64,000 bases of DNA from Actinospineispora spinosispora DSM 44797 (GTDB lineage Bacteria; Actinomycetota; Actinomycetes; Mycobacteriales; Pseudonocardiaceae): contig NZ_KE386833.1 of NCBI RefSeq assembly GCF_000429025.1, positions 386,582 through 450,581 of the forward strand, written 5' to 3'. Below, one piece after another: positions 14,763 through 31,353 of the stretch. How positions within the stretch are numbered: position 1 is the first letter of the stretch; the number at the start of each line of letters is the position of its first letter. A program made the position numbers and the translations under genes. Below the pieces are notes generated by a model that had not been told where the DNA came from, ran no database searches, and saw only the letters and a list, made by a program, of their open reading frames with translations.

Positions 14763-15845
14763 CTAACGAGGGGTGAAGACCCCGGTGACCTGTTGCGGCG
14801 CGTCCAGCGGTTGCTCGCGGTAGAGACCGAGCGCGCGCAGCACCGGCGAGTCGCTCAGGGTGAACAGGTCGGAGCGCCGGTCGGCGTGATGTTCCACCGC
14901 GGACCAGGAGGGCACCACGAACATGTCGCCGGTCGCCCAGTCGAACCGGCGGCCGTCGATGATGCTGTGGCCGGCACCGTCCCTGACCACGAACGTCCAG
15001 TTCCCGGCGCGCCGCACCCCGGAGGTCGTGCGTCCCGCGAAGACCCGCTGCATGCCGCAGGCCAGGGTGGGCAGAACGCTGCCGCCGGAACGCGGGTTGA
15101 CGTACTCGACGGACACCGACGGCTGTTCCGGCCGGGCGGCCGCCTCGGCGTCGAGGCGGGCGTCGGTGTCGGTCCAGCGGTAGATCAGCAGTGGGGAATG
15201 GGTCGGGTCCAGCACGTCGTGCACCACACCGGAGGTGTGCGCGGCGCGCCCGCCGAACCGTCGCTCCGAGTCGTTGCGCGCCAGGACCTGCTGGTTGGCC
15301 TCGGGGTGCGGTTCGAAGAAGATCGCGTCCAGCGCCAGGACCAGGGGGACGTCCAGACCGTCGAACCACAGCATGTTCCGGTCGGTCGAGTTCAGGTGGT
15401 CGTGCCAGTTCATCGAGGGGGTCAGCACCAGGTCGCCCGCCCGCATGTCGCAGGCGTCGCCGTTGACCGTCGTGCTGACGCCCTCGCCCTCCAGCACGAA
15501 CCGGATCGCGCCGGGGCTGTGCCGGTGCGCGGGCGCGCTCTCGTGCGGACCGAGACACTGGATTCCACCCCACAGGGTGCCCGCGACGTACGGGCGCCCG
15601 GCGAGGCCGGGATTACGCAGGCTGAGTACTCGTCGTTCGCCGCCGCGCTCGATCGGAACGAACTCGATCGCCCGCTCGGCGAGCGCGCGGTACACCTCCG
15701 CCCGCCACAGCCATGGCCGTGCCTTGGGACGCGGTGTCGGGGTCAGCAACTCTTCGGTGATGGTCCACAGCGGCGTCAGGTCGACCGCGTCGAGGTCGCG
15801 GTACAACCGCGCCAGTTCCGCATCGGTGTGCTGCTGCACGGTCAT
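14763..15845 (-). CDS. Gentisate 1,2-dioxygenase-like cupin oxygenase
   Basis: A 360-aa bicupin. The N-terminal cupin has the metal-binding signature PAHRHSPGAIRFVLEGEG and a later histidine in WHDH. The C-terminal cupin (near VRRAGNWTFVVRDG) lacks the HxH pair and is probably structural, as in gentisate dioxygenases. Family members cleave gentisate, salicylate or 1-hydroxy-2-naphthoate between ring carbons using Fe2+. The start at MTVQQHTD has a CTGGAGG site; an upstream in-frame Met is weaker. It diverges from the molybdenum-hydroxylase operon and may act on a hydroxylated ring produced by it. The precise substrate is uncertain. Confidence 0.8.
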   Translation of the reverse strand: MTVQQHTDAELARLYRDLDAVDLTPLWTITEELLTPTPRPKARPWLWRAEVYRALAERAIEFVPIERGGERRVLSLRNPGLAGRPYVAGTLWGGIQCLGPHESAPAHRHSPGAIRFVLEGEGVSTTVNGDACDMRAGDLVLTPSMNWHDHLNSTDRNMLWFDGLDVPLVLALDAIFFEPHPEANQQVLARNDSERRFGGRAAHTSGVVHDVLDPTHSPLLIYRWTDTDARLDAEAAARPEQPSVSVEYVNPRSGGSVLPTLACGMQRVFAGRTTSGVRRAGNWTFVVRDGAGHSIIDGRRFDWATGDMFVVPSWSAVEHHADRRSDLFTLSDSPVLRALGLYREQPLDAPQQVTGVFTPR

Positions 15846-16090
15846 CGGTGCGTTCGCCTCCAGGTGATTCTGTGCCCGCCCGATCAGCCGTCCGGCCGGG
15901 TGCAATCAGGACACTAGTTGCTGGAGCGAGGTCGAAGAAGTCGTACTGTCCGGCGACCTTCGCGAAGTTTCGTGCCGACTGGGCACCGTGCACAAGGCCG
16001 TCCGGGAGATTTGTCGGCCACGCCGAAGAGGAGCGATCGTCCGCGCTTCTACGGTCTGAGCACTGCACGACGACCGAGCGGAGGGGATCG

Positions 16091-16936
16091 ATGCGGCCGG
16101 TGCCGTTCGAGTACCTGGAACCAGTGACCGTGGAGCAGGCCTGTGCCGCGCTCACCGGGCGCGCGGTCGTTCTCGCGGGCGGGCAGAGCCTCGTCGCGCG
16201 GCTGAACACGAGGGAGTCCAGACCGGACGTGGTCGTCGCCATCGGGCGCATCGCCGAGCTCACCACGATCGAACTCGCCGACGGGATCCTGCACATCGGT
16301 GCGGCGGTCACCCAGCGCGCGGTGCAGCAGGCGCCGTGCGCGGCGCGGGTGCCGGTCCTGCTGTCCGCGCTCGACCATGTCGGGCACGTGCCGACCCGCA
16401 ACCGGGGCACGGTGGGCGGCAGTATCGCGTTCGCCGACCCGGCGGCCGAGCTCCCGGTGGTACTGCTCGCGCTCGGTGGTTCGGTCACCGCGGCCTCGTC
16501 CGCCGGGACGAGGACCGTGGCGGCGAGTGAGCTCTTCCTCGGTGCGTTTCGCACCACGCTGGACCCCGGTGAGCTGCTGACCTCGGTGCGGCTGCCGCTC
16601 CCTGCGGACGGCACGCGGTGGGCGTTCGCGCAGCGTGACTTCCGCAGGCACGCGAAGGTCTCGGTCGTCGCCGGCGGCGACGACGACGGGCTGCTCACCG
16701 TGGCGGTCGCCGGCGTGACCGACCGGCCGGTGCTGCTGGCCGACGCCTCGGCGTTGCTGGAGAAGGCCGGCGGCACGTCCGAGGGCGTGAAGCTCGTCGC
16801 GGACGCCGTGGCCGACCTGGTCACCCCGAACACGGACCCTCTCGGCTCGGTCGACTACCGGCGGCAGCTGGCCGTCGCGGCGACCGTCTCGGCCGTCGGA
16901 CGGGTCGTGTCCGCGGGCGACGAGGTCGCGGCGTGA
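16091..16936 (+). CDS. Molybdenum hydroxylase, FAD-binding (medium) subunit
   Basis: A 281-aa CoxM-type flavoprotein with the two FAD-pyrophosphate motifs LAGGQSLVARL (about 30-40) and TVGGSIAFADPAAELP (about 108-123), and the C-terminal CO_deh_flav domain. It carries electrons between the 2Fe-2S clusters of the next gene's product and an external acceptor. The start at 16091 follows GGAGGGG. The stop overlaps the GTG of the small subunit. Gene order medium-small-large is that of cox/nic/kdh-type hydroxylases. Confidence 0.88.
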   Translation: MRPVPFEYLEPVTVEQACAALTGRAVVLAGGQSLVARLNTRESRPDVVVAIGRIAELTTIELADGILHIGAAVTQRAVQQAPCAARVPVLLSALDHVGHVPTRNRGTVGGSIAFADPAAELPVVLLALGGSVTAASSAGTRTVAASELFLGAFRTTLDPGELLTSVRLPLPADGTRWAFAQRDFRRHAKVSVVAGGDDDGLLTVAVAGVTDRPVLLADASALLEKAGGTSEGVKLVADAVADLVTPNTDPLGSVDYRRQLAVAATVSAVGRVVSAGDEVAA

Positions 16937-17430
16937 GCGCCAGGCAGGCACGGCGCCCGGTGTCCGTGCGAGTCAACGGCGACGACGTCGAGGCGCTCGT
17001 CGAACCACGCACACTCCTGGTCGACTTCCTGCGGGAGAAGGCCCAGCTGACCGGCACGCACACCGGCTGCCACCAGGGATGGTGCGGCGCATGCACGGTG
17101 CTGATGGACGGGACCACGGCGCGGTCGTGCCTGACGCTGGCGGTGCAGGCCGACGGCGCCGAGGTGACGACCGTGGAAGGCCTTGAGGACCCGGACGGCA
17201 CCCTGTCGCCGCTGCAGCAGGCGTTCATCGAGCACTTCGGCTTCCAGTGCGGCTTCTGCACGCCCGGATTCGTGGTGCTCGGTACGGAGATCCTGGCGGA
17301 GGCCGAGGCGGGAGCGACGTTCACCCGGGCCGAGCTGCAGCGCAGGCTGGCGGCCAACATCTGTCGCTGCACCGGCTACCGGGGAATCCTCGACGCGCTC
17401 GAGGCGACGCTGAGCGAGGTCGTCAGATGA
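16933..17430 (+). CDS. Molybdenum hydroxylase, (2Fe-2S)-binding small subunit
   Basis: A 165-aa protein with both expected clusters. The N-terminal plant-ferredoxin site uses C46, C51, C54 and C66. The C-terminal four-helix site uses C106, C109, C144 and C146 in CGFCTPG and CRCTGYRG. The length is normal for CoxS/NdhB-like subunits. It overlaps both neighbours by 4 nt, so the three subunits are translationally coupled. Confidence 0.92.
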   Translation: MSARQARRPVSVRVNGDDVEALVEPRTLLVDFLREKAQLTGTHTGCHQGWCGACTVLMDGTTARSCLTLAVQADGAEVTTVEGLEDPDGTLSPLQQAFIEHFGFQCGFCTPGFVVLGTEILAEAEAGATFTRAELQRRLAANICRCTGYRGILDALEATLSEVVR

Positions 17431-19826
17431 CCGCCGGCACGGCCCGCTACGTGGGCACCGAGGTGACCTCCCGCAACGGTGCCCGGTTCGTCCGGGGCGC
17501 CGGCCGCTACACCGACGACGTCCATCTGCCCCGCGAGGCGACCCTCGCGGTCCTGCGCAGCACACACGCACACGCCCGAATCCGGTCCATCGACACCTCG
17601 GCGGGGCGGGCACTGGACGGGGTGTTCGCGGTCGCCACCGGAGCGGAGCTGTTCGACCGGATCGGGCCGCAGAAGTACCTGTGGGACCTGCCCGGCCAGA
17701 AGGTGGGACCCGGCAGGCCACTCGCGGCGGGCAAGGTGCGGCACGTCGGTGAGCCGGTCGCCGTCGTCGTCGCCGTCGACCAGTACGTGGCCGAGGACGC
17801 GCTCGACCTGATCGTCGTGGACTACGAACCGCTGCCGGTGGTCAACACGGTCGACGACGCGCTCGCCGAAGGCGCGCCACTGCTGCACGAGGAGTGGGGC
17901 ACCAACGTCGAGGTCACCGCCGCGTGGCCGACCGCGCTGCCCGGCCTGCCACCGCCCCCGGACGCCGGTGCCGCGCTCGCCGGGGCTCACCTCGTCGTCA
18001 CCGAGACGTTCACCAGCGCCCGGATCGTGGCGACCTCGATGGAGGGTCGCGGCGTGGTGTGTGACTACGACCCGGCCGGCCCCAGCCTGACGATCTACAC
18101 CTCCACCCAGTCACCGCACCAGATCCGGGAAGCCGTCGCGCTGATGATCGGCGTCCCGGAGCACCGGATCCGGGTCATCGCACCGGACGTCGGTGGCGCG
18201 TTCGGCATGAAGGCGGTGCTCTACCCCGAGGAGGTGCTGGTCCCGTACTTCGCGCTGACGCTGCGCCGCCCGGTCCGCTTCGCCGAGCAGCGCGACGAGT
18301 CGTTCGTCGCCTCGACCCCGGCCAGGGCCCAGCGGATGACGCTGGAGCTGGGGTTCACCGAGGACGGCCGGGTCCTCGGTCTGCGTGCCCGCTACACGAT
18401 CGACCTGGGCAGCGCGCCGTCCAGCTGCGGTGCCGGGACCGGGTGGGTGACGGGTGCTCTGCTCGGCGGGCCGTACGCCGTGCCCTCGGTGGACATTCAG
18501 GCGACGGCCGTCGTCACCAACAAGACCCCGCTCGGTGCCTATCGCGGCTTCGGCCAGCCCGAGGCGAACTTCCCGCTCGAACGGCTCATGGACATCGCGG
18601 CGGGCCGTCTGGGAATCGACCGGATCGAGCTGCGCCGCCGCAACCTGGTCGCCGCCGACGCATTCCCGTACACCACGGCGACCGGCATGCTCCTGGACAG
18701 CGGCGACTACCCGGCGATGCTCGATCTGGCGGTGCGCAGGCCCGCGTATCTGGCGGCACTGCGTGAGCGCGACCAGGCCAGGGCCGAGGGGCGGCGAGCC
18801 GGGATCGGGCTGGCCTTCTACAACGAGTGCACCAACTTCGGGCCGTCCGGGCTGTTCCCACTGATCGGGATCAGTACCGGCGGCTGGGATGCCACGACGA
18901 TCACCGTCGAACCGGACGGTCGGATCCGGGTCGCCAGTGGTCAGACGCCGATGGGCCAGGGCGTGGAGACGGCGTTCGCGCAGCTCGCGGCCGACGCGTT
19001 CGGTGTCGACATCGACGACGTCGCGGTGCAGTTCGGGGACACCGCGTCCAGCCACTACACGGCGTACGCGAGCGGGGCCAGCCGTGCGGCGGGCATCGGC
19101 GGGTCCTCGCTGCTGGTCGCGGCGGGCAAGGCGATCGAGAAGATGCGGGCCATCGCCGCGCACCTCATGGAAGCCGACCCCGACGACGTCGAACAGCACG
19201 AAGGTGGCTTCCGGGTCCGTGGGACCGGGACCGCCCCGGTGTCCTATGCGGCCGTCGCGTCCGCCGCGTACCAGGGCGGGAACCTGCCGGCAGGCATGGA
19301 GCCCGGCCTGCAGGTCATGGGCACGTTCGACCCGCAGGCACTGGGTTTCTCCTACGGCGTGGCGATCGCGCTGGTCGAGCTGGACGAGCAGACCGGCGAG
19401 GTCACGGTCAAGCGGCTGATCTTCGGGCACGACTGCGGGACCCAGCTCAACCCTCGCATCGTCGCCAACCAGGTGATCGGCGGCGCGTTGCAGGGCCAGG
19501 GCGCCGCGCTGCTGGAGCAGCTGCTCTACGACGACGCGGGCAGGCCGCTGGCCACCGCGTTCAAGGACTACCTGGTGCCGCTCGCCACCGAGATCCCGGA
19601 GCTCGACCTGTTCCACACGGAGACCCCCACGCCGTTCACCCTCAACGGCGCGAAGGGCGTCGGTGAGAGCGGGGTGATCGCGGCCCCGGCGGCGATCGTG
19701 AACGCCATCCAGGACGCGCTGCCTCCGGACGCCGAGCAGCTCACCGAGATCCCGGTGCTGCCCGAGCGGGTCCTGCGGGAGCTGAACCGACCGACCCCAC
19801 CCGGCCACAACCCAGTCCACACGTGA
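17427..19826 (+). CDS. Molybdenum hydroxylase, molybdopterin-binding large subunit (not CO dehydrogenase)
   Basis: A 799-aa xanthine-oxidase-family catalytic subunit. It has an N-terminal a/b-hammerhead (FVRGAGRYTDDV), Mo-cofactor motifs GGAFGMK (about 256-262) and AYRGFGQPEA (371-380), and the catalytic glutamate motif GVGESG near the C-terminus. The active-site loop is AYRGFGQ, not the AYxCSFR of form I CO dehydrogenase nor AYRGAGR of form II, so hydroxylation of an organic, probably heteroaromatic or aldehyde, substrate is expected. Next to an LLM oxidoreductase and several amidohydrolase-like enzymes, an N-heterocycle is plausible (inference). Confidence 0.88.
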   Translation: MTAGTARYVGTEVTSRNGARFVRGAGRYTDDVHLPREATLAVLRSTHAHARIRSIDTSAGRALDGVFAVATGAELFDRIGPQKYLWDLPGQKVGPGRPLAAGKVRHVGEPVAVVVAVDQYVAEDALDLIVVDYEPLPVVNTVDDALAEGAPLLHEEWGTNVEVTAAWPTALPGLPPPPDAGAALAGAHLVVTETFTSARIVATSMEGRGVVCDYDPAGPSLTIYTSTQSPHQIREAVALMIGVPEHRIRVIAPDVGGAFGMKAVLYPEEVLVPYFALTLRRPVRFAEQRDESFVASTPARAQRMTLELGFTEDGRVLGLRARYTIDLGSAPSSCGAGTGWVTGALLGGPYAVPSVDIQATAVVTNKTPLGAYRGFGQPEANFPLERLMDIAAGRLGIDRIELRRRNLVAADAFPYTTATGMLLDSGDYPAMLDLAVRRPAYLAALRERDQARAEGRRAGIGLAFYNECTNFGPSGLFPLIGISTGGWDATTITVEPDGRIRVASGQTPMGQGVETAFAQLAADAFGVDIDDVAVQFGDTASSHYTAYASGASRAAGIGGSSLLVAAGKAIEKMRAIAAHLMEADPDDVEQHEGGFRVRGTGTAPVSYAAVASAAYQGGNLPAGMEPGLQVMGTFDPQALGFSYGVAIALVELDEQTGEVTVKRLIFGHDCGTQLNPRIVANQVIGGALQGQGAALLEQLLYDDAGRPLATAFKDYLVPLATEIPELDLFHTETPTPFTLNGAKGVGESGVIAAPAAIVNAIQDALPPDAEQLTEIPVLPERVLRELNRPTPPGHNPVHT

Positions 19827-19851
19827 GCTAGAGCGGAGATGACCAGTCGTC

Positions 19852-20862
19852 ATGGTGAGCGAACAGAACAACACACGGATCGGGCTGCTGCTGGGCAGCA
19901 CCACGCCGCCCGAGCACATCGCCCGCCTGGCCCGTGAGGTCGAGGACGGTGGCTTCGGTGAGCTGTGGATCCCCGAGGACTACTTCTTCCTCGGTGGTAT
20001 GTCCGCGGCCGCGATCGCGCTCGGCGCCACCGAGCGGATCCCGGTCGGGACCGCGGTGGTCTCGGCGATGGTGCGCCACCCGGCGTTGCTGGCGATGGAG
20101 ATCGCCACCCTGGCACGGGCGTTCCCGGGCAGGCTGCGGCCGGGCATCGGGCACGGCGTGCCCGGATGGACCGCGCAGATGGGTCTGACCGTCTCCTCAC
20201 CGATGAGCGCGCTGCGGGAGACGATGGTCGGCGTCCGTTCTCTGCTCTCCGGCGAGAAGGTCACCGACCAGGGGCGGGTGCACAGCTTCGCCGAGGTCGC
20301 ACTGACCCACCCACCGAGCGAGCGGGTGCCGCTGTACGGCGGGGTGCTGGGCGACAAGGGCATCGGCCTGGTCGGTGAGCTGGCCGACGGCCTGGTGGTG
20401 AGCGTGCTCGCCACCCCGGAGTACGTCGCGGCCACCAGGGAGAAGCTCGACAAGGCAGCGGCATCGGCGGGCCGGGACTCGCGCCCGGAGATGGTCGTGC
20501 TCGTGGCGCTGAACGTCACCAGGGACGCCGCCCAGGCCGCCGCGACCCGCGAGGCGATCAAGCCGATCCTCGCGTTCTACCTCGCCGCCACCGGGCCGAA
20601 CCCGCTGCTGGCCTCCATCGACGGTAACGAGCGGCTCGCCGAGATGCTCACCCGGGGCGGCCCCGAGGTCGTCCACGCGGAGATGCCCGATGAATGGGTC
20701 GACGCCATGTCGATCACCGGCAGCACCGAGGGCGCCCGGACGCGTCTGCGCTGCTTCTTCGACGCCGGCGCCGACCGGGTCGTCGTGGTCCCGCTCGTCG
20801 AGGCAGGCGCCGAGGAGTCGCTGGCCACCGTTCGTGAGCTGCTGGCCGACTTCCCGGTCTGA
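19852..20862 (+). CDS. LLM-class flavin-dependent oxidoreductase
   Basis: A 336-aa TIM-barrel luciferase-like monooxygenase/reductase. The features are IGLLLGSTTPPEHIARLAREVE at the N-terminus, PVGTAVVSAMVRHPALLAMEIATL and the GRLRPGIGHG strand. It may use F420 or FMN; sequence alone does not decide. It is part of the catabolic operon, 25 bp after the Mo-hydroxylase large subunit. In analogous pathways (RutA, EDTA/NTA monooxygenases) such enzymes oxygenate or open N-containing rings, but here the reaction is unknown. Confidence 0.82.
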   Translation: MVSEQNNTRIGLLLGSTTPPEHIARLAREVEDGGFGELWIPEDYFFLGGMSAAAIALGATERIPVGTAVVSAMVRHPALLAMEIATLARAFPGRLRPGIGHGVPGWTAQMGLTVSSPMSALRETMVGVRSLLSGEKVTDQGRVHSFAEVALTHPPSERVPLYGGVLGDKGIGLVGELADGLVVSVLATPEYVAATREKLDKAAASAGRDSRPEMVVLVALNVTRDAAQAAATREAIKPILAFYLAATGPNPLLASIDGNERLAEMLTRGGPEVVHAEMPDEWVDAMSITGSTEGARTRLRCFFDAGADRVVVVPLVEAGAEESLATVRELLADFPV

Positions 20863-20901
20863 GCAGCCGACCCGGTTCCGATTTCGACACGAGGAGATGT
20901 C

Positions 20902-21363
20902 ATGTCCGATGTAGACACCGACGCCGCCGCCGTACTGAAGGTGCACAACGGTTGGCTGGCGGCCAACGTCGGCCTGGAGGCGAACTCCATGCTCGGCTAC
21001 TTCCCGGAGGGCGAGGGCTACCTGCAGTTCAACCTCAACGGGTTCACCTACAACGGGGTGCTCGACAAGGCCAAGCTGTGGAACAACCTCAACGCGGTGG
21101 GGGTGGACATCACGCGCATCGAGGACACCAGCGAACCGGTCGTCCAGGTGTTCGGGGACGTCGCGCTGCTCACCTCCGAGGGCGAAGCAGAGCTGCTGCT
21201 GCCCAGCGCGACGGGAAAGCTGGAGTCCTCGGGAGCGACGCGCTTCCGCAACACCGAGTTCTACCGGCGCGACGACGGCACGGGCGGCGCGGACTGGCGG
21301 ATCTGGCACATGCACGTCAGCGAGGCGGCGCCCGAGGGCACCCTCAAGTACGGGACAGAGTGA
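20902..21363 (+). CDS. NTF2-like/SnoaL-like superfamily protein
   Basis: A 153-aa single-domain protein with the alpha+beta cone pattern of NTF2-like folds: an N-terminal helix (AAAVLKVHNGWLAANVG), the strand segment VQVFGDVALLTSEGEAELLL and a terminal DWRIWHMHVSEA. Members are small isomerases, hydrolases, decarboxylases or ring-cyclase-like enzymes or accessory domains. GAGGAGAT precedes the ATG. It is coupled to the next gene by a GTGA overlap, so a role in the same pathway is likely. The specific function is unknown. Confidence 0.7.
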   Translation: MSDVDTDAAAVLKVHNGWLAANVGLEANSMLGYFPEGEGYLQFNLNGFTYNGVLDKAKLWNNLNAVGVDITRIEDTSEPVVQVFGDVALLTSEGEAELLLPSATGKLESSGATRFRNTEFYRRDDGTGGADWRIWHMHVSEAAPEGTLKYGTE

Positions 21364-22142
21364 GTACGACGACGGTCGCGGGCCCGGCAGGTGACCTGTC
21401 GGTCGTCCTGTCGGGCGAGCCACCGAGGGACGGCGCGATCGTCCTGGTGCACCCGATCAACACGGCCGCCGTCGTGTGGGAACGGGTGGTCGCGCTGCTC
21501 GACCGCCCTTCGGTGACGCTGGACCTGCGTGGTCACGGACGGTCCACGATGGCCGGGCCGTTCACGATCGAGGCCGGCTACCTGCCCGACCTCGTTGCGG
21601 TGCTCGACGCACTGAACCTGTCCTCGGTGCACCTGGTCGGCGGGTCGTTGGGCGGGCCGATCTCGCTGGCGGCCGCCGCGCTGCACCCGGAGCGGGTACG
21701 CAGTGTCACGACGTTGGGGTCGACGCTCGGTACCGGGGTTCCCGACGAGGCGATCGCCGCGATGATCGCCGAGCTGGAGGCCAAGGGCACCGACCGGTAC
21801 TTCGAGGAACTGGTGCCGACGATCGTCGGCACCGGCTACCGCGAGGAACGCCGGGTCCTGGACACGATGCGGGTCGCGGCGGGCGGCCGTGCGGAGTCCG
21901 TGGTCGCCGACATCCTGCGCGGAGCCTTCGGCGCGGACATCAGACACCTGGTCGACAAGGTCGACACGCCGGTGCTCGCCGTCGGCGGAAGCGAGGACCC
22001 GACGTGTCCGCCCGCGATGACCGAGGAGATCGCCTCGGCGACCGGCGGCCGGGCGGTCCGGTGGGACGGCATCGGCCACCTGCCGATGCTGGAGGCCCCG
22101 GAGCGGGTGGCGGAACTGATCCTGGAACAGGTGGATGGATGA
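21360..22142 (+). CDS. Alpha/beta-fold hydrolase
   Basis: A 260-aa hydrolase resembling 3-oxoadipate enol-lactonase/MhpC-type enzymes. The features are LVHPINTAAVVWERVV (oxyanion region, with HPIN in place of HGxG), DLRGHGRS, the nucleophile elbow GGSLGG, an acid near GGSED and the C-terminal GIGHLPMLEAPE histidine. The GTG start at 21360 overlaps the preceding stop. In this operon it could hydrolyse a ring-cleavage product, lactone or ester. Confidence 0.82.
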   Translation: MSTTTVAGPAGDLSVVLSGEPPRDGAIVLVHPINTAAVVWERVVALLDRPSVTLDLRGHGRSTMAGPFTIEAGYLPDLVAVLDALNLSSVHLVGGSLGGPISLAAAALHPERVRSVTTLGSTLGTGVPDEAIAAMIAELEAKGTDRYFEELVPTIVGTGYREERRVLDTMRVAAGGRAESVVADILRGAFGADIRHLVDKVDTPVLAVGGSEDPTCPPAMTEEIASATGGRAVRWDGIGHLPMLEAPERVAELILEQVDG

Positions 22143-23050
22143 CGTACTCGATCGTCGCGCGCGACGCGGCCACCGGGGAACTGGGTTACGGCTCGCAGTC
22201 GCACTTCTTCGGAGTGGGCCGGCTGGTGGGCTGGGGTGAGGCCGGCGTCGGAGTCGCGGCGACCCAGGCGTTCGTCAACGTCGACTACGGTCCGGGCGCG
22301 ATCGCCGGACTGCGTGCCGGTCGAGGAGCCCAGGAGGTCGTCGACGAGCTGACCGGCGCCGACGAGCTCAGTGCGTACCGGCAGCTCGGGGTCGTCGACG
22401 CCGAAGGGCACGCGGTGTCCTTCACCGGGACCAGCTGCGCCCCGACCGCCGGTGGCTCGGTCGGCGATGGGGTGGCGGTGCAGGGCAACATGCTCGCCGG
22501 CCCGGAGGTGTACCGGGACATGCTCACCGCGTACCAGCGGGCGACGGGGCCGCTGGCCGACCGGATGCTCGCCGCGATGGTGGCTGCCGAACGCGCCGGT
22601 GGCGACGTGCGCGGCTCGCAGTCGGCAGTGCTGCGGGTGTACTCCGGCACGCGTTCGGACACGCCGTGGCGGGAATCGTTGGTCGATCTGCGGGTGGACG
22701 ATCATCCCGATCCGATCGGGGAGCTGGCCAGGTTGTTGCCCCGACAGCGGGCGTTCGACCTGATCGGGGAGGTGATCTTCGCGCCGAACCTGACGATCGG
22801 GCCCTACGAGGGCGTGTCCGCCGAGCTGCTCGCGGACAAGCTGACCGGTCTCGCCCGCGCATCGGAGCTGCTCGGGCCGGACAACCGGGAGGCCGACTTC
22901 TGGCGGGCGCTCCTACTGGCTCGTAGCGGCGAGCGAGCCGCGGCCCGCGCGCTGTTCGACGACCTGTTCGCCTACCGCCCCGCGCTGCGCGGGTTCCTCG
23001 CCGGAATCGGTCCGCTCGGCTTCCTCGACGACGTCACGGAGTATCTATGA
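22139..23050 (+). CDS. DUF1028-family Ntn-hydrolase-like protein
   Basis: A 303-aa protein opening MTYSIVARDAATGELGYGSQS, the DUF1028 signature, with GWGEAGVGVAATQAFVNVDYGPGAIAGL and GDGVAVQGNML. DUF1028 proteins share the gamma-glutamyltranspeptidase/Ntn fold and occur in amide and peptide catabolism loci. No biochemical role is firmly established to my knowledge. The C-terminal 90 residues form a separate helical domain. It overlaps both neighbours by 4 nt. Confidence 0.82.
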   Translation: MTYSIVARDAATGELGYGSQSHFFGVGRLVGWGEAGVGVAATQAFVNVDYGPGAIAGLRAGRGAQEVVDELTGADELSAYRQLGVVDAEGHAVSFTGTSCAPTAGGSVGDGVAVQGNMLAGPEVYRDMLTAYQRATGPLADRMLAAMVAAERAGGDVRGSQSAVLRVYSGTRSDTPWRESLVDLRVDDHPDPIGELARLLPRQRAFDLIGEVIFAPNLTIGPYEGVSAELLADKLTGLARASELLGPDNREADFWRALLLARSGERAAARALFDDLFAYRPALRGFLAGIGPLGFLDDVTEYL

Positions 23051-24243
23051 CAGCCGGCCCCTCGACGATCGACGCCGCGGCATCGGCGCGCGCCCGCGTG
23101 GACGTTCAGCGGTGCGCGGCGCTCGCCGCCGCCATGGTGCAGTGCGACACGCGGAACCCGCCCGGTGACGAGAGCTCGATCATCGGGTTGCTCTCGGACG
23201 TGTTGCGCGGCCTCGGGGCACGGGTGGAGACGTTCGAGCCCTCACCCGGCCGGACGTCACTGCTGGCCTCCGTCGAACACGGCGCAGACCGGCCGAACCT
23301 GCTGGTGAACGGTCACCTCGACGTCGTCCCGGTGGTCGACAAGGACTGGTCGGTGCCACCGTTCGGTGGTGTCATCCGCGACGACGTGCTGTACGGCAGG
23401 GGCTCGTGCGACATGAAGGGCGGCATCGCGTCGGCGATCGAGGGACTGCGCGCGTGTGCCGACGCCGGTGTCCGGCCGAGCTGTGACATCACGTTCCACC
23501 TGGTCGCCGACGAGGAGACCGGTGGCCGGTGGGGGACCGAGGCACTGCTGAGAGCGGGCCGTATCTCGGCCGACGCCGCGATCGTGCCCGAGCCGAGCGA
23601 GCTGGGGGTGTGCGTCGCGGAGCGTGGCGCACTGCTGGCCGAGATCGTCGTGTCCGGGCGCGCGGCGCACGGCAGCGACCCGGCGCGCGGCAGGTCCGCG
23701 ATCGGGGACGCCGCGCGGCTCGTACGTGCCGTGCAGGAGGCCGACCTCGGTGACCCTGCCCACGCGCTGCTCGGCACGCCGACCTGCAACGTCGGGGTCA
23801 TCTCCGGCGGGACCGCACCGAACATCGTCGCCAGCTCGTGCACGTTGCGAGTGGATCGCCGGGTCCTGCCCGGCCAGAGCCGCGAGTACGCGGTCGAGAC
23901 ACTGCGCGCGGCGTTGGACGGAGCAGGAACCGACATCGACTACCGCCTGGACGTGCTCGCCTTCGTCGAAGGCTCGGAGCTGGACTCCGCGCACCCCTTC
24001 GTGGGCTTCATGCGGGCGGCGACGAACCCCGGCAGACCGGTGCGTGGCCTCTACCTCGGCACCGACGCCCGGTTCCTGCGCAATCAGCTGGGGATCCCCA
24101 CCGTCGTCTACGGGCCGGGGTCGATGACCGTGGCGCACACCGCGGACGAGTACGTTCCACTCGCGGAGCTCGGCGACGCGGCGCGCTCGTTCGCCACCGC
24201 CTACGCGACGTACCCGGTCACCGGCGTCCACCTCACCCCGTGA
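23047..24243 (+). CDS. M20-family metallo-amidohydrolase/peptidase (ArgE/DapE-like)
   Basis: A 398-aa dizinc hydrolase with the M20 ligands H90 in NGHLDVVP, D122 in GRGSCDMKGG and E156-E157 in ADEETGG, plus a dimerisation domain in the middle. Substrates of the family include N-acyl amino acids, N-carbamoyl compounds and dipeptides. The position in this operon suggests hydrolysis of an amide released after ring opening. Its TGA stop lies inside the left arm of the hairpin at 24239. Confidence 0.85.
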   Translation: MTAGPSTIDAAASARARVDVQRCAALAAAMVQCDTRNPPGDESSIIGLLSDVLRGLGARVETFEPSPGRTSLLASVEHGADRPNLLVNGHLDVVPVVDKDWSVPPFGGVIRDDVLYGRGSCDMKGGIASAIEGLRACADAGVRPSCDITFHLVADEETGGRWGTEALLRAGRISADAAIVPEPSELGVCVAERGALLAEIVVSGRAAHGSDPARGRSAIGDAARLVRAVQEADLGDPAHALLGTPTCNVGVISGGTAPNIVASSCTLRVDRRVLPGQSREYAVETLRAALDGAGTDIDYRLDVLAFVEGSELDSAHPFVGFMRAATNPGRPVRGLYLGTDARFLRNQLGIPTVVYGPGSMTVAHTADEYVPLAELGDAARSFATAYATYPVTGVHLTP

Positions 24244-24280
24244 GTGTTGCGGCCGCCCAGGACCGGCCGCAACACTCACG
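24239..24280. terminator. CGTGAGTG-ended perfect palindrome inside the catabolic operon
   Basis: Arms 24239-24255 and 24264-24280 are perfect 17-bp inverted repeats with an 8-nt loop. The left arm contains the stop codon of the M20 gene, and the right arm ends 4 nt before the ribosome site of the next gene. It lies between co-directional genes of one apparent operon, so it may attenuate or stabilise rather than end transcription. The ends are identical to those of the hairpins at 3199 and 48541. Confidence 0.7.
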
Positions 24281-24294
24281 GGAGATACCGGCCG

Positions 24295-25374
24295 ATGCGC
24301 TACATCACCGCTGACGACGTGGACGACCTCGTCGTGGGCGCGGGCGTTCTGGGCAGCGGCGGGGGCGGCGACTGGTACGCGCCCAGGCAGATGCTGATCG
24401 CCGCGATCGAGCGTCACGGCCCGGTGCCGCTGGTGGACCCGGCCGATCTCGACCCGGCCGCGCGGCTCCTGCCGATCATCTCGGGAGGCGCACCGCCGGT
24501 ACTGATCGAGATGATCCCGGGAACCCGGGAGAGCGCGCTGCTTCGGGCGACGGTCGAGGATGCGCTGCACGAGCGGTGCTCCGCGGTGCTCCCACTGCAG
24601 ATGGGACCGGTCAACGCGGTGATCCCGGTAGTCGTCGCCGCCCAGCTGGGGCTGCCGTGCGTCGACGCCGACGCGATGCTGCGGTGCTTCCCGATGGTGG
24701 AGATGACGCTGTTCACCCTCGCGGGGCTGTCGCCGTCCCCGCTCGTGGTGGTCGACGCGATGGGTGCCGCCGCGGTGCTGTCGGCGCCGGACAACAACAC
24801 GGTGTCCGCGATGCTGCGCAGCTGCCTGCCGCACATGGGCCTGGTGGCGCTGGGCAGCGCCTACCGGATCACCGCCGGTGAATGCGCCCGCATCGCTCCG
24901 CGGGGCGGGGTGAGCCGGTGCCTGCGAATCGGGCGCACGTTCCGGGAGGCGCAGAGCGACCCGGACGGCGTCGGTGACGAACAGCTACGCGACTGTCTGG
25001 ACGCGATCGGCGGGGTACTGCTGTTCACCGGCTTCGTCGCGGAGCTGTTCCAACGCACCACCGACGGGTTCCCGCGTGGTGTGCTCAGCATCGAGTCGTC
25101 GGAGGATCCGTCGTCGGTGCTCCGGGTGGACTTCCAGAACGAGAACCTGGTCGTGGCCAGGGACGGGATCGTTCTGGCGACCGTCCCGGACCTCATCGTC
25201 CTGCTCGATCTGGACACCGGAACGGTCATGCAGACCGTCGACGTGGTCGTGGGCCAGCGCCTGCACGTGATCGGCGCGCCGGTCGGCGACCGTTGGCACA
25301 CCGGGGCGGGCACCGCCCTCGTCGGGCCACGGGCGTTCGGATACGACATCGACCCGGTGCGGGTCGGCGCATGA
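24295..25374 (+). CDS. DUF917-family protein
   Basis: A 359-aa protein with the DUF917 signature near its start (DDLVVGAGVLGSGGGGDWY) and the family's LQMGPVNAVIPVVVAAQLGLPCVDADAMLRCFPM-like core (residues about 100-140). DUF917 proteins are typically encoded beside HyuA-like hydantoinase/oxoprolinase proteins, as here with a 4-nt overlap to the next gene. The reaction is unknown. The start at MRYITADD follows a GGGAG site. An upstream in-frame start would lie inside the hairpin and is rejected. Confidence 0.82.
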   Translation: MRYITADDVDDLVVGAGVLGSGGGGDWYAPRQMLIAAIERHGPVPLVDPADLDPAARLLPIISGGAPPVLIEMIPGTRESALLRATVEDALHERCSAVLPLQMGPVNAVIPVVVAAQLGLPCVDADAMLRCFPMVEMTLFTLAGLSPSPLVVVDAMGAAAVLSAPDNNTVSAMLRSCLPHMGLVALGSAYRITAGECARIAPRGGVSRCLRIGRTFREAQSDPDGVGDEQLRDCLDAIGGVLLFTGFVAELFQRTTDGFPRGVLSIESSEDPSSVLRVDFQNENLVVARDGIVLATVPDLIVLLDLDTGTVMQTVDVVVGQRLHVIGAPVGDRWHTGAGTALVGPRAFGYDIDPVRVGA

Positions 25375-26762
25375 GCGAGCTGCGGCTGGGTGTGGACATC
25401 CGGGCCCGAGGTGCGACCGGGGTCCTGCTGGACGTCGACGACACGATCCTCGCCGAACTCACCGTTCCCGGCCCGGGCGCGCCGGCCGACCTGCTGCGCA
25501 CGGTCGTCGGCGACCTCGCCGACGATCGGCGCACCGCGATCGGCGCCGTTGTCATCGCCAGCTCCGTCCCCGCCGAGGGGCTCACCGTGCCGTCCGAGCT
25601 GTCCCGGGTGGGGGTGCTCCGGATCGGGGCGCCGGCCGCGACCTCGGTGCCGCCACTCACCGGCTGGCCGGCGGAGCTCACGGTGCCGGTCGGCGGCCCG
25701 GTGGCGATGATCAGGGGAGGGCATCGCTACGACGGCGAGGAGCTCGCGGCGCTCGATCTCGACGGGGTCGCCGAGTTCGGTCGTACCTGCCGGGGTGTCG
25801 TCGGCGCCGTCGCGGTGAGCGCGATCGACTCGCACGTCAACGCGCTGCACGAACAGCGGGCCGTGGCGCTGCTGAGCGACCTGCTGGGTCCTGGCGTACC
25901 GATCATCGCCGGCTACCGCGCCGGAGGTTCCGGGCTGCTGGAACGCGAGAACACCGCTGTGCTCGACGCCGCGCTGGCCACCCGGGCACGCCGGTTCGTC
26001 GAGGACTGTGGCGCGGGCCTCGCCGAGGCGGGGGTCGCCGGCGACCTGTATCTCACCGGCGGCGACGGCACGGTGGCACCGGCGTCGTGGGTCGCGGACC
26101 ATCCGCTGCACACGTTGGACGCTGTGCACGGCGCCGCGCGAGCCGGGGCCGCGCAGCTGACCGGACGACGCAGCCTGGTCGTCGTCGACGTCGACGAGGA
26201 GCGGGTGAGGATCAGCGCGCAGTCCGGCGGGCTGCCGGTAGAGACGGGAACACCGACCGTGATCCGGGGCGTCCGTCTCGGTACACGGCAGGTGCGCGGT
26301 GTGGAGGTGGACCACTCGGGCCCGTCGGCCCGACGTCCGGCGACGGTGCGCAGGGTGGCCCGGGCAGTGGAGCGTGTGCGGGCCGGCCTGCTCGAGGTGC
26401 CGCTGGTCATGGTCGGTACGCGAGCCGACACGGTCCCGGCGCCCACCGGGATGGAGGTGCTGCGGCCGGTTCACGCTGCCTGTGCGTCGGCGGTCGGGGC
26501 CGCGGGCGGTCAGGCGTCCGGGTCGGTCGATCGCCTGTTCTGGCTGGGCGGCGACGGCATGGCCGAGTGTGTCGAGGCGGCCCGTGTCGAGGCGAAGGAC
26601 GCGGCGATCCGTTCGGGGGCGGATCCCGCGCGGCTGACCGTCGGCGACGTGCGGGAGGCACTCATGACCTACGTCCCGGTCGGCTGCGTCCGGCTCCGGG
26701 TGACGGCGACCGGCCCGATCATGTCGGCCCCGGTGGGTCCGGTCGAGGAGGCGAGCCGGTGA
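25371..26762 (+). CDS. HyuA-like hydantoinase/oxoprolinase-family protein with degenerate N-terminal motif
   Basis: A 463-aa member of the actin-like-ATPase hydantoinase/oxoprolinase group. It shows the N-terminal domain layout (LGVDIRARGATGVLLDVDDTIL), a SHVNALHE segment, GYRAGGSGLLERENTAVLDAALA, and LYLTGGDGTVAP as in hyuA proteins. The usual GGTxTD phosphate-loop motif after GVD is replaced by RARGATG, and the protein is shorter than the normal 650-700 aa. It may have lost or changed ATP use. It pairs with the DUF917 gene as in other actinomycetes. The name is by homology only. Confidence 0.72.
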   Translation: MSELRLGVDIRARGATGVLLDVDDTILAELTVPGPGAPADLLRTVVGDLADDRRTAIGAVVIASSVPAEGLTVPSELSRVGVLRIGAPAATSVPPLTGWPAELTVPVGGPVAMIRGGHRYDGEELAALDLDGVAEFGRTCRGVVGAVAVSAIDSHVNALHEQRAVALLSDLLGPGVPIIAGYRAGGSGLLERENTAVLDAALATRARRFVEDCGAGLAEAGVAGDLYLTGGDGTVAPASWVADHPLHTLDAVHGAARAGAAQLTGRRSLVVVDVDEERVRISAQSGGLPVETGTPTVIRGVRLGTRQVRGVEVDHSGPSARRPATVRRVARAVERVRAGLLEVPLVMVGTRADTVPAPTGMEVLRPVHAACASAVGAAGGQASGSVDRLFWLGGDGMAECVEAARVEAKDAAIRSGADPARLTVGDVREALMTYVPVGCVRLRVTATGPIMSAPVGPVEEASR

Positions 26763-28360
26763 ACGGTCGGGCCGTCACTCTCGGCCAGCTGCTGGCCATG
26801 GGGCTGCTGCGGGAGCACGAGGTGCTAGGCGGTGCGGGCGGGCTGGACCGCCCGGTCCGCATGGTCGTCCCGGGCACGACGGTGCACGGCATCGGCGACC
26901 TCGCGCCGAACAGTGTGGTGGTGTTCGGTCCGGACCAGCTGGCCCTCGACGAGCTCGGCACCGATCTGGCGCTTCGCCTGGCACGCAGCGCCGGGCTGTC
27001 CGGCATCATCGCGCACCGGCCGTCCGGCAAGGTACCGCTGGTCACCCGCAGGCTCGCGGACAAGCTGAACCTGCCGCTCGTCGGTGTCGACGAGGTGGCG
27101 CCCGCCGCGGTCGCGGCCACGTTCGACCCGTACGTCCGTGCACCCGAGATCGCCGGCCTGCGCATCCTGGGGACCACTGCTCAGCGGTTCCAGACCCCGC
27201 CGACCAGCGCGAACGAGCTCACCAGGACGTTGAGTCAGACCCTGGGCGGCCCGGTGACACTCGTCGACGGCCGCGCCGGGTTCGTCGCGGGGGACAGCGA
27301 GCTGCACCGGCTGCTGGCCGAGCCGGAGATCCGTGCCCGGCTCGGCGGTTCGCAAGCCGGCGCGAGCACCGTCTCGCTGGGCGAGGCGGACGCGCTCCTG
27401 CTGCATCCGGTCCGCCTGGAACGTGCGGGGCAGGCGAACTTCTGGCTGGTCGCCCGCCTGCACACCGCGACCGGGGCGCTACTGGAACCGCTACGTCAGT
27501 CGCTGGCGATCGCGGCGCTGTCCTTCGCGGTCTACGTCGCGGGCAACACGGCGGCATTGGAACGGGAGAGCCGCGCGCGCTCACTGTTGCTGGGAGAGGT
27601 GCTGGACCAGACCGAGGCGCCGTCGCCGAGAGCCGTGGAACGTGCGGCGGCTCTGGGCTGGCGGTTGGCGGGCTGGCACACCGCCGTCCAGATCGCGGTC
27701 AAGGAGTCCGGTGGGACGGCGAGACCGGGGGAGCTGATGGCCGAGCTCGAGGAGGAGCTGACCCGGGGCGGACTGACCGCGGCGCTCGTCGAGCGGCCGG
27801 ACGGGTGGGCGTTCTGGACCACCGCCCAGTCCGAGCCGGACTCGGTGGATCCCCGGCCGCTCCTCGAGTCGGTGCGCTCGGCCCTGCTGGCGGTGGTGCG
27901 CGAGCACGCCGGACTGTCGCTGTGTGCGGGGATCGGCGGAGCGTGGGCGGGTACGTCGGGTATCCAACGATCGCTCGACGAGGCTCGGAGGGCATGCCTG
28001 CTGGCCATGACCGAGCACGGTGTCGCGCCGGTCGAGCACGTCGACGCGGTGAGTATGAAGCGCCTGCTGGTCGGCTGGTACGCCTCGGGCTCGCTGCGTT
28101 CGGTGGCCGCCGAGATCGTGACCCCGCTGCTCGAAGCGGACCCCTCCGGCGAGCTGGTCCGGACGTTGAGGCGTTACCTGGACCAGGAGTCGTCGGTGAC
28201 CGAGACGGCCGCCCTGCTCGGAATCCACCGCAACACGGTCATGCAGCGCATGGAGCGGATTCGGACGTTGCTGCCGGTCAGCCTGGACGATCCCGACGAC
28301 CGCATCGTGGTCCATCTGGCGACACGTGCGGTGGGCATCGACTGGGACGAGCACTCTTGA
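26759..28360 (+). CDS. PucR-family transcriptional regulator (operon-embedded)
   Basis: A 533-aa regulator with an N-terminal PucR-like domain (VTLGQLLAMGLLREHEVLGG), a central GGDEF-like/CdaR region and the C-terminal PucR HTH (SVTETAALLGIHRNTVMQRMERI). The GTG overlaps the stop of the HyuA-like gene, making it the last member of the operon. PucR-type proteins regulate catabolic genes for purines, amino acids or related N-compounds in response to the substrate. It probably autoregulates the operon. Confidence 0.87.
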   Translation: MNGRAVTLGQLLAMGLLREHEVLGGAGGLDRPVRMVVPGTTVHGIGDLAPNSVVVFGPDQLALDELGTDLALRLARSAGLSGIIAHRPSGKVPLVTRRLADKLNLPLVGVDEVAPAAVAATFDPYVRAPEIAGLRILGTTAQRFQTPPTSANELTRTLSQTLGGPVTLVDGRAGFVAGDSELHRLLAEPEIRARLGGSQAGASTVSLGEADALLLHPVRLERAGQANFWLVARLHTATGALLEPLRQSLAIAALSFAVYVAGNTAALERESRARSLLLGEVLDQTEAPSPRAVERAAALGWRLAGWHTAVQIAVKESGGTARPGELMAELEEELTRGGLTAALVERPDGWAFWTTAQSEPDSVDPRPLLESVRSALLAVVREHAGLSLCAGIGGAWAGTSGIQRSLDEARRACLLAMTEHGVAPVEHVDAVSMKRLLVGWYASGSLRSVAAEIVTPLLEADPSGELVRTLRRYLDQESSVTETAALLGIHRNTVMQRMERIRTLLPVSLDDPDDRIVVHLATRAVGIDWDEHS

Positions 28361-28489
28361 TCCACCGTTGTGTGCAGAACGCCCACTCGGTAGGCGAATG
28401 CAGGGCGTAATGCCCACTGACTCATCGTGGTCGGGTTCGTAGTCTTCCGCACAAAGCTCCAGCTGGGCGGTAAGGCGGAGGGTGGTCCC

Positions 28490-30139
28490 ATGTCGCTGGT
28501 GGACGAGCGGACTCGGCACGTCGACGAGCAGGTGACCTCGCTGCTCATCGCCGAACCCGCGCGGTTGCGGGATCTGCTGAGCGGCTCCGGGCGTCGCGGC
28601 TTCCACTTCGCGGCCGCTCCGAGGGGCTTGGACCGTGAGGTGCGTGGGGTGACGATCTGGGATCCGCTCACGCCCGACCCGCTGCGCACCGGGGACCTGG
28701 TATTGGCGACGACCCCGGGCATGTCTCCCGAGATGGTGGGACGCGTGCTCGGCGAGGCGGAGAGCGCGGGCGCCTCGGGAGTACTCGTGAAAGGTATCGA
28801 GGACCTGGCGGCCGCGCGTGCGGTGGCGGAGCGTGCGGGTGTCGCGCTTGTGGTGGCTGACGACGAGCTGTGCTGGGACGACATCTGTCTGATGGCGCGC
28901 TCGGTGATCCCCGCGGCGCGAGCGGGACGGTCCGCCGGAGCGGGGTGGTCGGGTGGGCTGTTCGAGCTCGCGGAGACCGCTGCCGCACTGCTGTGCGCGC
29001 CGGTCGAGATCGCCGACGCCGAGCTGCGCGTGCTCGCGTTCGCCAACCTCGACCACCCCGTCGACCGGCTGCGCACCGAGTCGATCATGTCCAGGCGGAC
29101 GCCCGAGTACGCGCGGGCTTGGCTCGCGGCCTCCGGCGTGCTGGGCAGGCTCCGCTACGGCAGGCGCCCGGAGCTGGTGTCGCTGCCGGATACCGCTCCT
29201 CGGCTGGTCGCGCCGGTCGTCGTCCGGGACGCGGTGGTGGGCTACGTCAGCGTCGCACAGGCAGACAGGCCGCTGGGCAGCGCGGACCTGCCCGTGGTCG
29301 TGGACCTCGCCCACGCCGTCGCGAGCCGGATGATGAACGCGCCGGAGCCCGGACGCCACGAGGATCTCGTGCTCGGCGACCTGTTCAGGGGCGTCCTGCT
29401 CGGGCGTGGAGCGCTCGACGTGCTCGTCGAGCGCCTGGCGGAGCGCACGCGCGGCACGGTCGTCGGTGACTGGTGTGTGGCGGGCTTCGCCCCACGTTCA
29501 CGGCGCGAGGTGCTCGACCAAAATGACTCCGTGGTGGCCTCGTGCGCCCGGCTGCTGTGCGGCGGGGCAACCGCGACGGTGCTGGACGGCCGCGTCATGG
29601 TATTGCTGCCGTACACCGGAACGGCCGAGGTCGGCAGGCTCGTCGAGCTGTTGCGCTCGCGGTACTCGGCGCAGCTGGGGACGCAGCTGGTGGCGTGCAT
29701 CGGAGAACCGTTCAGGACTCTCCGGGAGCCGATGACCCTGGTGCGCAGGATGAGCAGGGGACTTGCGGTCCTGGGCGCCGGGAGCGGGGTGGAGGTGTCG
29801 ACGCTCGCCGAGCTGAGGCCTCGGATGCTGATCGCGGAGCTCGGTGAGGTGGCGCTGCACTATCCGAGCCTGGTTCGCGGCGTGCTCGACGTGCTGCGGG
29901 ACACGGACTCCGTGCGCAACCGCGAGTACCTGGACTCGCTGCTCGGTTACTTCGACGCGGGATGCGACGTGAGCGAGGCGGCGAAGCGGCTGGGGATCCA
30001 TCGCAATACGCTGTACTACCGCTTGCGGCGGGTCGAGACCCTGTGCGGGTTCGAGCTGGACAATCCGATGGACAGATTCACGGTCGAACTGCAAGTGCGT
30101 GTGCATTTCATAACAGCTACTCGCGCACAGTTACTTTGA
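28490..30139 (+). CDS. PucR-family transcriptional regulator
   Basis: A 549-aa paralog of the preceding regulator, with an N-terminal PucR sensor domain (LRDLLSGSGRRGFHFAAAPRGLDREVRG region), a middle domain and the C-terminal HTH (CDVSEAAKRLGIHRNTLYYRLRRV). The start was placed at 28490, preceded by GGAGGGTGG; an upstream Met at 28427 lacks a site. A gap of about 130 bp separates it from the operon, so it may have its own promoter. Two tandem PucR genes suggest dual control of the island, or different ligands. Confidence 0.87.
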   Translation: MSLVDERTRHVDEQVTSLLIAEPARLRDLLSGSGRRGFHFAAAPRGLDREVRGVTIWDPLTPDPLRTGDLVLATTPGMSPEMVGRVLGEAESAGASGVLVKGIEDLAAARAVAERAGVALVVADDELCWDDICLMARSVIPAARAGRSAGAGWSGGLFELAETAAALLCAPVEIADAELRVLAFANLDHPVDRLRTESIMSRRTPEYARAWLAASGVLGRLRYGRRPELVSLPDTAPRLVAPVVVRDAVVGYVSVAQADRPLGSADLPVVVDLAHAVASRMMNAPEPGRHEDLVLGDLFRGVLLGRGALDVLVERLAERTRGTVVGDWCVAGFAPRSRREVLDQNDSVVASCARLLCGGATATVLDGRVMVLLPYTGTAEVGRLVELLRSRYSAQLGTQLVACIGEPFRTLREPMTLVRRMSRGLAVLGAGSGVEVSTLAELRPRMLIAELGEVALHYPSLVRGVLDVLRDTDSVRNREYLDSLLGYFDAGCDVSEAAKRLGIHRNTLYYRLRRVETLCGFELDNPMDRFTVELQVRVHFITATRAQLL

Positions 30140-30380
30140 TCTTCACTTCTGTCGCATCCACCACGTGAGTGATATGGCTGTACGCCTACACGGTTGATCG
30201 ATTTCATACGTAAGAGTGGCATAATTAAGCTGTAAACTACTTTTGGGTGTACCCTTTGGCGGCTCCCACTGCTCCACTAAGGTCACTCTTATAGACAGAG
30301 ATATATCGGGTCTTGGAGAGTGATGCGCTCGCGGGCCGTACGCCCCGGGTCACTGACAACGAAGAACCGGGGGGTTCCTT

Positions 30381-31337: not shown

Positions 31338-31353
31338 CCCGCTCGCGCCCCAC

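Follow-up and report, generated by a model that had tools for sequence, protein, structure and literature searches.

A run of twelve plus-strand genes at 16091-30139 of a 64,000-nucleotide stretch of DNA from the soil actinomycete Actinospineispora spinosispora DSM 44797 (contig NZ_KE386833.1, positions 386,582 to 450,581; the whole of this stretch is called the window in what follows) is the subject of this analysis. Gene-by-gene re-reading and annotation of this region of the window identify the run as an operon. Between 16091 and 28360, seven of the ten junctions are 4-nt overlaps and the remaining three are gaps of 25, 39 and ~51 nt (counted with 24298 as the start of the DUF917 gene, whose actual ATG is three bases earlier, at 24295); the second PucR gene begins 66 nt after the first. 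An earlier note on this DNA, made from the sequence alone, had the genes joined almost throughout by 4-nt overlaps, which slightly overstates the case; the gene set and families that it described are borne out by Pfam and NCBIfam annotation, scored against curated cut-offs.

The first three genes encode the subunits of a molybdenum (Mo) hydroxylase: a CoxM-like FAD subunit (16091..16936; Pfam FAD_binding_5, E 2.5e-42), a [2Fe-2S] subunit (16933..17430, a 4-nt overlap; Fer2 and Fer2_2, the latter with E 6.6e-26) and the large, molybdopterin subunit (17427..19826; MoCoBD_1/2), which would execute a first ring hydroxylation. They are followed by genes for a Mer-like LLM protein, probably an F420H2-dependent hydride transferase (19852..20862; Bac_luciferase PF00296, E 5.9e-45), a SnoaL_3/NTF2-like protein that serves as the marker of the module (20902..21363), a PcaD-like alpha/beta hydrolase (ABH; 21360..22142; Abhydrolase_1, E 2e-23), a DUF1028 protein resembling the N-terminal nucleophile (Ntn) hydrolases and bearing a helical C-terminal extension (22139..23050; PF06267, E 1.5e-67), and an M20 amidohydrolase of ArgE/DapE type (23047..24243), which passes the cut-off of that subfamily (TIGR01910; 243.7 bits, cut-off 217.6). 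A DUF917/S-Me-THD-like protein (24295..25374; PF06032 and PF20906, with the query started at 24298) and a short HyuA-like (hydantoinase A/oxoprolinase-like) protein (25371..26762; Hydantoinase_A, E 5e-4, below cut-off) precede the two PucR-type regulators (26759..28360, HTH_30 E 9.9e-20, and 28427..30139, HTH_30 E 2.5e-20).

Conservation of the gene neighbourhood

When the NTF2-like protein was used as query against 200 genomes of the window's family, 12 gave a match, the window's own genome included, and in six of these 12 the matches, in other genera, are at 56-63% identity. A full-length DUF1028 homologue lies near 14 of the 15 NTF2 places in the same set of genomes. The nine-gene run LLM-NTF2-ABH-DUF1028-M20-DUF917-HyuA-PucR1-PucR2 is kept in five of ten family loci (two of the five have an additional LLM gene ahead of PucR2), and a sixth (L073) has all of the gene types in changed order.

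A scan that used nine aligned NTF2-like proteins as the query yielded 70 loci in named genomes, each extending up to 10 kb to either side of the NTF2-like gene (some are shorter). Loci L022-L031 and part of L068-L137 come from the same genomes, and the counts that follow rest on L068-L137 only; four pairs of loci share a contig (L127/L128, L130/L131, L119/L134, L115/L133) and others share one genome. A match had to cover 50% of the query, so that short or cut loci score as misses, and a match to the Mo large subunit or the LLM protein may be any paralogue of the family. Read in this way, the 70 loci contain matches to NTF2 in 69, DUF1028 in 60, ABH in 51, LLM in 49, the Mo large subunit in 28, M20 in 25, HyuA in 21, DUF917 in 20, PucR2 in 19 and PucR1 in 14. 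In Pseudonocardia eucalypti (L068) the complete set of twelve is present, arranged as in the window. The nine-gene run from LLM to PucR2 is present in ten of the 70 loci; in four of the ten an additional LLM gene precedes PucR2, and in one PucR1 gives two matches. Other loci retain the core, some together with M20, DUF917/HyuA or the Mo-hydroxylase and some lacking them; in relatives, the HyuA-like gene stands directly behind DUF917. The full core of NTF2, ABH, DUF1028 and LLM is found in 38 of the 54 loci that have 5 kb on both flanks, and DUF1028 in 48 of the 54.

Since the loci were picked for carrying an NTF2 gene, the appropriate control is the position and strand of the partners. DUF1028 is on the strand of the NTF2-like gene in 57 of 59 cases (median gap 818 nt), ABH in 50 of 51 (174 nt) and LLM in 46 of 48 (210 nt), and the clustering of the core genes with the NTF2-like gene is not due to chance. 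Moreover, pairwise identities correlate between the protein families of the module (ten pairs, r 0.73-0.96, a value that none of 999 permutations reached for any pair), a correlation to which the common ancestry of the genomes adds. In a class-wide scan, the NTF2 profile matched in 41 of 394 genomes, strongly (E below 1e-15) in eight, the window's own included; the weak matches are not counted as members of the module.

The neighbourhoods in the family and in the 70 named loci support the operon as a real, conserved catabolic unit serving one pathway. The earlier note had proposed one pathway and had named separation of the genes in a neighbourhood analysis as the outcome that would speak against it; that analysis has been run, the genes do travel together, and the proposal is not refuted. 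Some of its components have to be reconsidered. The gentisate-dioxygenase-like cupin (14763-15845, divergent from the operon; NCBIfam 278 bits, cut-off 442), offered there as a possible participant, is matched in none of the 70 loci and none of the ten family loci, and is therefore probably not part of the pathway. Nor is the Mo-hydroxylase an obligatory partner, as the 28 loci with its large subunit indicate: in four of the 70 loci (Mycolicibacterium L070-L072 and Amycolatopsis L115) a P450-cluster gene, verified as Pfam p450 for the L115 member only, occupies the corresponding upstream position. The first oxidase of the module thus varies between Mo-hydroxylase and P450.

Other surroundings vary as well. 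A Pfam-confirmed PNPOx-type protein is encoded upstream of the module in one Prauserella locus (L023). Amycolatopsis jejuensis accounts for six of the 70 loci (L084, L087, L107, L115, L129 and L133, two of them on one contig), which differ in their sets of neighbours; the module seems, from this multiplicity, to have diversified. In Pseudonocardia kujensis, genes for a flavin amine oxidase and an amino-acid permease stand directly ahead of the Mo-hydroxylase on the same strand (L069:505-3535), possibly a clue to substrate. Transporters near modules are Dpp-like in Bradyrhizobium (by NCBIfam) and Liv-like in L108 (judged by eye), in addition to the L069 permease, and a membrane protein of L101/L114 has no Pfam match. 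The attempt to guess the substrate from transporters failed, the type of transporter differing from locus to locus.

Properties of the individual proteins

The closest relatives of the Mo large subunit among solved structures are CoxL (8uem) and quinoline 2-oxidoreductase (1t3q). Identity as an aerobic CO dehydrogenase was rejected: the protein scores 523.8 bits against the CO dehydrogenase model TIGR02416 (cut-off 991) and reads GAYRGFGQPE at what we take to be the position of the active-site Cys motif.

The NTF2-like protein falls under cut-off by sequence (SnoaL_3/NTF2-like, 19.9 bits), and its predicted structure (pLDDT 88) has an NTF2-like fold according to two structure aligners. Foldseek places a putative ketosteroid isomerase and CaMKII hub domains at the top, and the second aligner also returns bile-acid dehydratase and scytalone dehydratase. 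Residues H15, N22, N44, R116, T118, D125, H136 and H138 are invariant in 33 aligned sequences. The protein may be an isomerase/tautomerase or a hydratase; the fold by itself reveals no function.

A GGSLGG nucleophile elbow can be read in the ABH sequence. The AlphaFold model of the DUF1028 protein (pLDDT 95.5) is nearest in fold to a solved DUF1028 structure, 2imh (E 6e-17). Weaker matches follow, first to Anbu (E 4e-4), then to HslV and proteasome subunits (from E 3e-3 upwards), and asparaginase-type Ntn hydrolases come lower in the list (E above 0.1). Met1-Thr2 is invariant in 36 aligned sequences, and 56 of 62 homologues start with Met-Thr-(Tyr/Phe/Cys)-Ser; six divergent homologues, omitted from the alignment, lack this beginning at the chosen start codon. 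Thr2 would be rightly positioned for an Ntn nucleophile once Met is removed, and the protein is probably an amidohydrolase with N-terminal Thr2.

DUF917 proteins are suspected hydantoinases (PMC11055893, in part). The HyuA-like protein yields Hydantoinase_A-like matches of 19.8 and 20.7 bits, under the Pfam cut-offs, and a sequence search found no relative for it among solved structures at E 0.01. The window's own genome has six S-Me-THD_N (DUF917) matches, the window's among them; two of the others are ~1 kb apart, at C1:547-549 kb.

The LLM protein and the linkage of the module to F420 genes

The window LLM protein scores 125.9 bits against the NCBIfam model of Mer (methylene-H4MPT reductase) and 124 against an F420 LLM subfamily; with the models of RutA, alkanesulfonate monooxygenase and luciferase it stays at 18-22 bits (RutA 19.5, alkanesulfonate monooxygenase 21.6). 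Twenty-seven module LLM proteins were aligned: that of the window, 24 drawn from the 41 usable ones in the 70 loci, and two from Bradyrhizobium. Eleven F420-type models (two Mer, nine F420-dependent LLM families) are matched by all 27. These scores favour an F420-dependent reductase (hydride transferase) over an oxygenase. The earlier scheme, ring hydroxylation, oxygenation or opening and then hydrolysis of an N-containing ring, stays plausible in outline, with its oxygenation step probably a reduction.

The window's own genome encodes CofH, the only F420 gene searched for there; the match lies in an open frame of 864 residues and exceeds the cut-off, at 511 bits. Fifty of the 70 loci entered a wider CofH search covering 49 genomes: 45 have a match, 40 of them passing the cut-off. 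CofD is over cut-off in ten of ten genomes tested, among them the four that yielded no CofH match. These four, a Desertimonas and three Jiangella, are the genomes of loci L108, L119, L127 and L130. A gap in assembly or masking, or a divergent FO synthase, are possible explanations for missing CofH where CofD is present.

Bradyrhizobium makes a useful test of linkage, since only 40 of its 242 genomes have CofH over cut-off. Nine of the 242 have a strong NTF2 match and all nine are among the 40, with NTF2 and CofH 0.58-0.71 kb apart in every case (p 4e-8, uncorrected for kinship). Two further genomes have weak NTF2 matches, one with CofH elsewhere and one with none over cut-off; some 30 other CofH-bearing genomes lack an NTF2 match, and in these F420 must have another use. 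The cluster in one of the nine genomes (G471; loci L149 and L150) has, in this order, a Dpp-like transporter and a probable regulator; DUF917, HyuA and a small HapK-like protein; a Mer-like LLM, three Mo-hydroxylase subunits, NpdG and a second probable regulator; CofE, CofD, CofC and FbiC; a short open frame; NTF2, ABH and DUF1028; and an SDR-like protein, SMP-30 and BKACE, with a second LLM lying further on (the regulators and the SDR were named by eye). Its NpdG, CofE, CofD, CofC and CofH are all over cut-off; complete FbiC was scored in the homologous cluster of L096. Outside Bradyrhizobium, the Mo-hydroxylase of the Prauserella halophila module is immediately followed by FbiC. Pseudonocardia asaccharolytica has CofD and FbiC at a distance of 6-7 kb from a divergent module (with a further CofH elsewhere), and close to another module there is a fragment of FbiC (CofD/FbiC genes or fragment at L066:17872-19948, L106:15861-18284 and L097:14511-14882).

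Proposed pathway and alternatives

The observations to be accounted for are the gene families, their conservation as one unit, the F420-type classification of the LLM protein and the linkage to F420 genes, seen in Bradyrhizobium and also in two genera of actinomycetes. From these we infer a substrate class, an order of steps and a set of catalytic roles: the operon may specify an F420H2-dependent reductive pathway for catabolism of an N-heteroaromatic compound in Pseudonocardia, a reading to which we assign a probability of about 0.5. The three-subunit Mo-hydroxylase would place an oxo group beside a ring nitrogen, generating a cyclic amide; the Mer-like LLM protein would then use F420H2 as hydride donor to reduce the electron-poor ring or imine, with loss of aromaticity, and the NTF2-like protein would tautomerise or hydrate the dearomatised ring. 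ABH and the Ntn-type DUF1028 protein (with Thr2 as nucleophile) would open the ring and cleave amides, DUF917 with the HyuA-like protein, and M20, would act on a residual hydantoin- or imide-like ring and N-acyl product, and both PucR proteins would regulate the operon. More broadly, the NTF2-like/ABH/DUF1028/LLM core can be thought of as an undescribed exchangeable cassette for F420H2-dependent ring reduction and ring hydrolysis. Depending on the N-heterocycle, it would be joined to one oxidase or another upstream (Mo-hydroxylase, P450) and to varying hydrolases downstream, and it would explain why some Bradyrhizobium produce the rare cofactor F420 at all; we offer this generalization tentatively, its parts taken jointly having somewhat less than an even chance.

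Several observations weigh against the reductive pathway. The window LLM protein is below the curated cut-off of every NCBIfam LLM model, and the FMN-type model TIGR03885 matches 25 of the 27 aligned LLM proteins (the window's at 47 bits; other FMN monooxygenase models match ten or fewer). CofH was not found in four of the 49 module genomes and is below cut-off in five more. Among 80 loci scanned, F420 genes stand beside the module at only nine distinct places, with none within reach in the remaining loci; six of the nine are close Bradyrhizobium relatives, and one actinomycete case is the FbiC fragment. The Bradyrhizobium LLM proteins are only 26-27% identical to the window's, so that the linkage there concerns the type of pathway and proves no cofactor for the window protein. 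M20, DUF917, HyuA and both PucRs are absent from most of the 70 loci, the twelve-gene operon includes no transporter gene, and the structures nearest to the NTF2-like protein include the non-catalytic CaMKII hubs.

Some of these facts would be accommodated if the LLM protein were instead an FMN-dependent monooxygenase opening the ring with O2 after the Mo-hydroxylase, with the hydrolases finishing the job, which is close to the scheme of the earlier note. Ring-opening oxygenases do exist within the LLM superfamily: RutA and pyridine monooxygenase are FMN-type enzymes that open rings in O2-dependent reactions. The TIGR03885 matches and the four genomes in which CofH was not found point the same way. 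On the other hand, the RutA, alkanesulfonate monooxygenase and luciferase scores are far below the 126 bits for Mer, F420 biosynthesis genes lie in or beside module clusters of Bradyrhizobium, Prauserella and Pseudonocardia, and CofD is found even where CofH is not; oxygenative opening is unlikely on balance. The substrate might also be a non-aromatic cyclic amide (a hydantoin or cyclic dipeptide), the F420 enzyme reducing a dehydro bond or imine, DUF917/HyuA hydrolysing the ring, and DUF1028 and M20 cutting amides. The ArgE/DapE-like character of M20 and the Dpp-like ABC transporter flanking the Bradyrhizobium cluster would suit such a substrate, as would the recurrence of DUF917 and dipeptide-type ABC transporters in cyclodipeptide-oxidase clusters (PMC11055893, in part); a Mo large subunit in 28 loci, with CO dehydrogenase and quinoline 2-oxidoreductase nearest to the window's, argues against it and makes this an improbable assignment.

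Another reading is a variant, in an aerobic actinomycete, of the pathway for reductive degradation of uric acid or purines, with the same logic of a Mo-enzyme, reductive dearomatisation, two ring openings and M20. Such a variant would fit the PucR regulators, the allantoinase- and allantoate-amidohydrolase-like genes near the module in Jiangella (L119), the SsnA/8-oxoguanine-deaminase-like gene in a Nocardioidaceae metagenome-assembled genome (L122), and a putative F420-dependent LLM protein reported at the uric acid reductase step in Chloroflexota (PMC12507026, in part). The L122 neighbour, however, reaches only 171 bits against a cut-off of 455.5, and SsnA, an Amidohydro_1-type HyuA, YgeW and YgeX are all missing from the twelve operon proteins; we regard the variant as quite improbable. 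That antibiotic biosynthesis also uses F420-dependent LLM proteins (PMC8498797, in part) brings to mind a cluster for tailoring of a secondary metabolite or for detoxification rather than for growth-supporting catabolism. Several separate hydrolases, PucR regulation, the ABC transporter or amino-acid permease genes of some relatives, and annotation by Pfam and NCBIfam that finds no synthase among the twelve proteins leave very little room for this.

If the reductive pathway holds, roles would follow for DUF1028 and for a DUF917/HyuA-like pair, and reductive dearomatisation of N-heterocycles would extend to aerobic soil bacteria. According to passages of a 2021 review of F420, why newly found producers such as Proteobacteria make this cofactor was unanswered, and no F420-dependent enzyme had been studied experimentally in bacteria outside Actinobacteria (PMC8498797). 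The compact Bradyrhizobium cluster, in which F420 genes, a Mo-hydroxylase, a Mer-like enzyme and hydrolases are assembled, makes the question of purpose directly testable.

Neighbouring genes

In the intergenic stretch between the operon and the divergent cupin gene (15840-16095), no inverted-repeat operator of at least 12 bases was found. Downstream of PucR2 (30357-32245 of the window) are two coding-like open frames, 30381-31337 on the plus strand and 31427-32245 on the minus strand, neither with a Pfam match. The genes at 36979-41450, which encode a PTS enzyme I-like protein together with an amidohydrolase, a glucosamine-6-phosphate isomerase-like protein and a regulator of GntR/UTRA type, probably serve the use of amino sugars. 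A Rieske ring-hydroxylating oxygenase alpha subunit is encoded at 52466-53728 (minus strand).

Comparison with known systems

That the gene set fits no complete known pathway had been suspected from the first, and no described pathway matching it was found in the literature searched, whose coverage leaves out most subscription journals; the unit is apparently undescribed. Searches of the same scope returned no paper on DUF1028, nothing on thiohydantoin desulfurase or on F420, Bradyrhizobium and fbiC together, and nothing joining F420, hydride, Meisenheimer and tautomerase; for F420 and Bradyrhizobium, no title among the matches listed is on this subject.

The Rut pyrimidine pathway also combines an LLM protein with an ABH (and the related module L115 has a RidA-family gene in addition), but its other families are not represented among the twelve operon proteins. 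Membership was rejected on the scores of LLM against RutA (19.5 bits, cut-off 498.3) and of ABH against RutD (29.4 bits, cut-off 238.5). S-methyl thiohydantoin desulfurase has Pfam domains identical to those of the operon's DUF917 protein, which is assigned 77.7 bits by the corresponding model (NF058532; equivalog cut-off 450) and does not qualify as that enzyme.

The picrate/2,4-dinitrophenol route of Rhodococcus and Nocardioides, which uses F420H2-dependent LLHTs (PMC8498797, in part), resembles the pathway proposed for the operon in directing an LLM hydride transferase at an electron-poor ring. Its NpdG is present in the Bradyrhizobium cluster but not among the twelve window genes, so that membership was rejected, and the picrate-route passages of that review contain no description of a Mo-hydroxylase or amide hydrolases like those of the operon. 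The reductive uric acid pathway, XdhD-YgfK/UacX-SsnA-HyuA-YgeW/UacY-YgeY-YgeX, in which reduction is detectable only if coupled to hydrolysis (PMC12507026, in part), has in common with the proposed pathway a Mo-enzyme at the start, reductive dearomatisation, stepwise hydrolysis of the ring and M20. The part played by the Mo-enzyme differs, XdhD acting as a reductase in the account available from that source and the operon's enzyme being assumed to be a hydroxylase. The operon, in an actinomycete host, has NTF2-like, ABH, DUF1028, DUF917 and hydantoinase-A-like proteins in place of SsnA, amidohydrolase-type HyuA, YgeW/UacY and YgeX, and their absence from its twelve proteins led to rejection of membership here too. 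The operon belongs to neither the uric acid nor the picrate route; what both share with it is the proposed reductive logic, for which they are cited as precedents.

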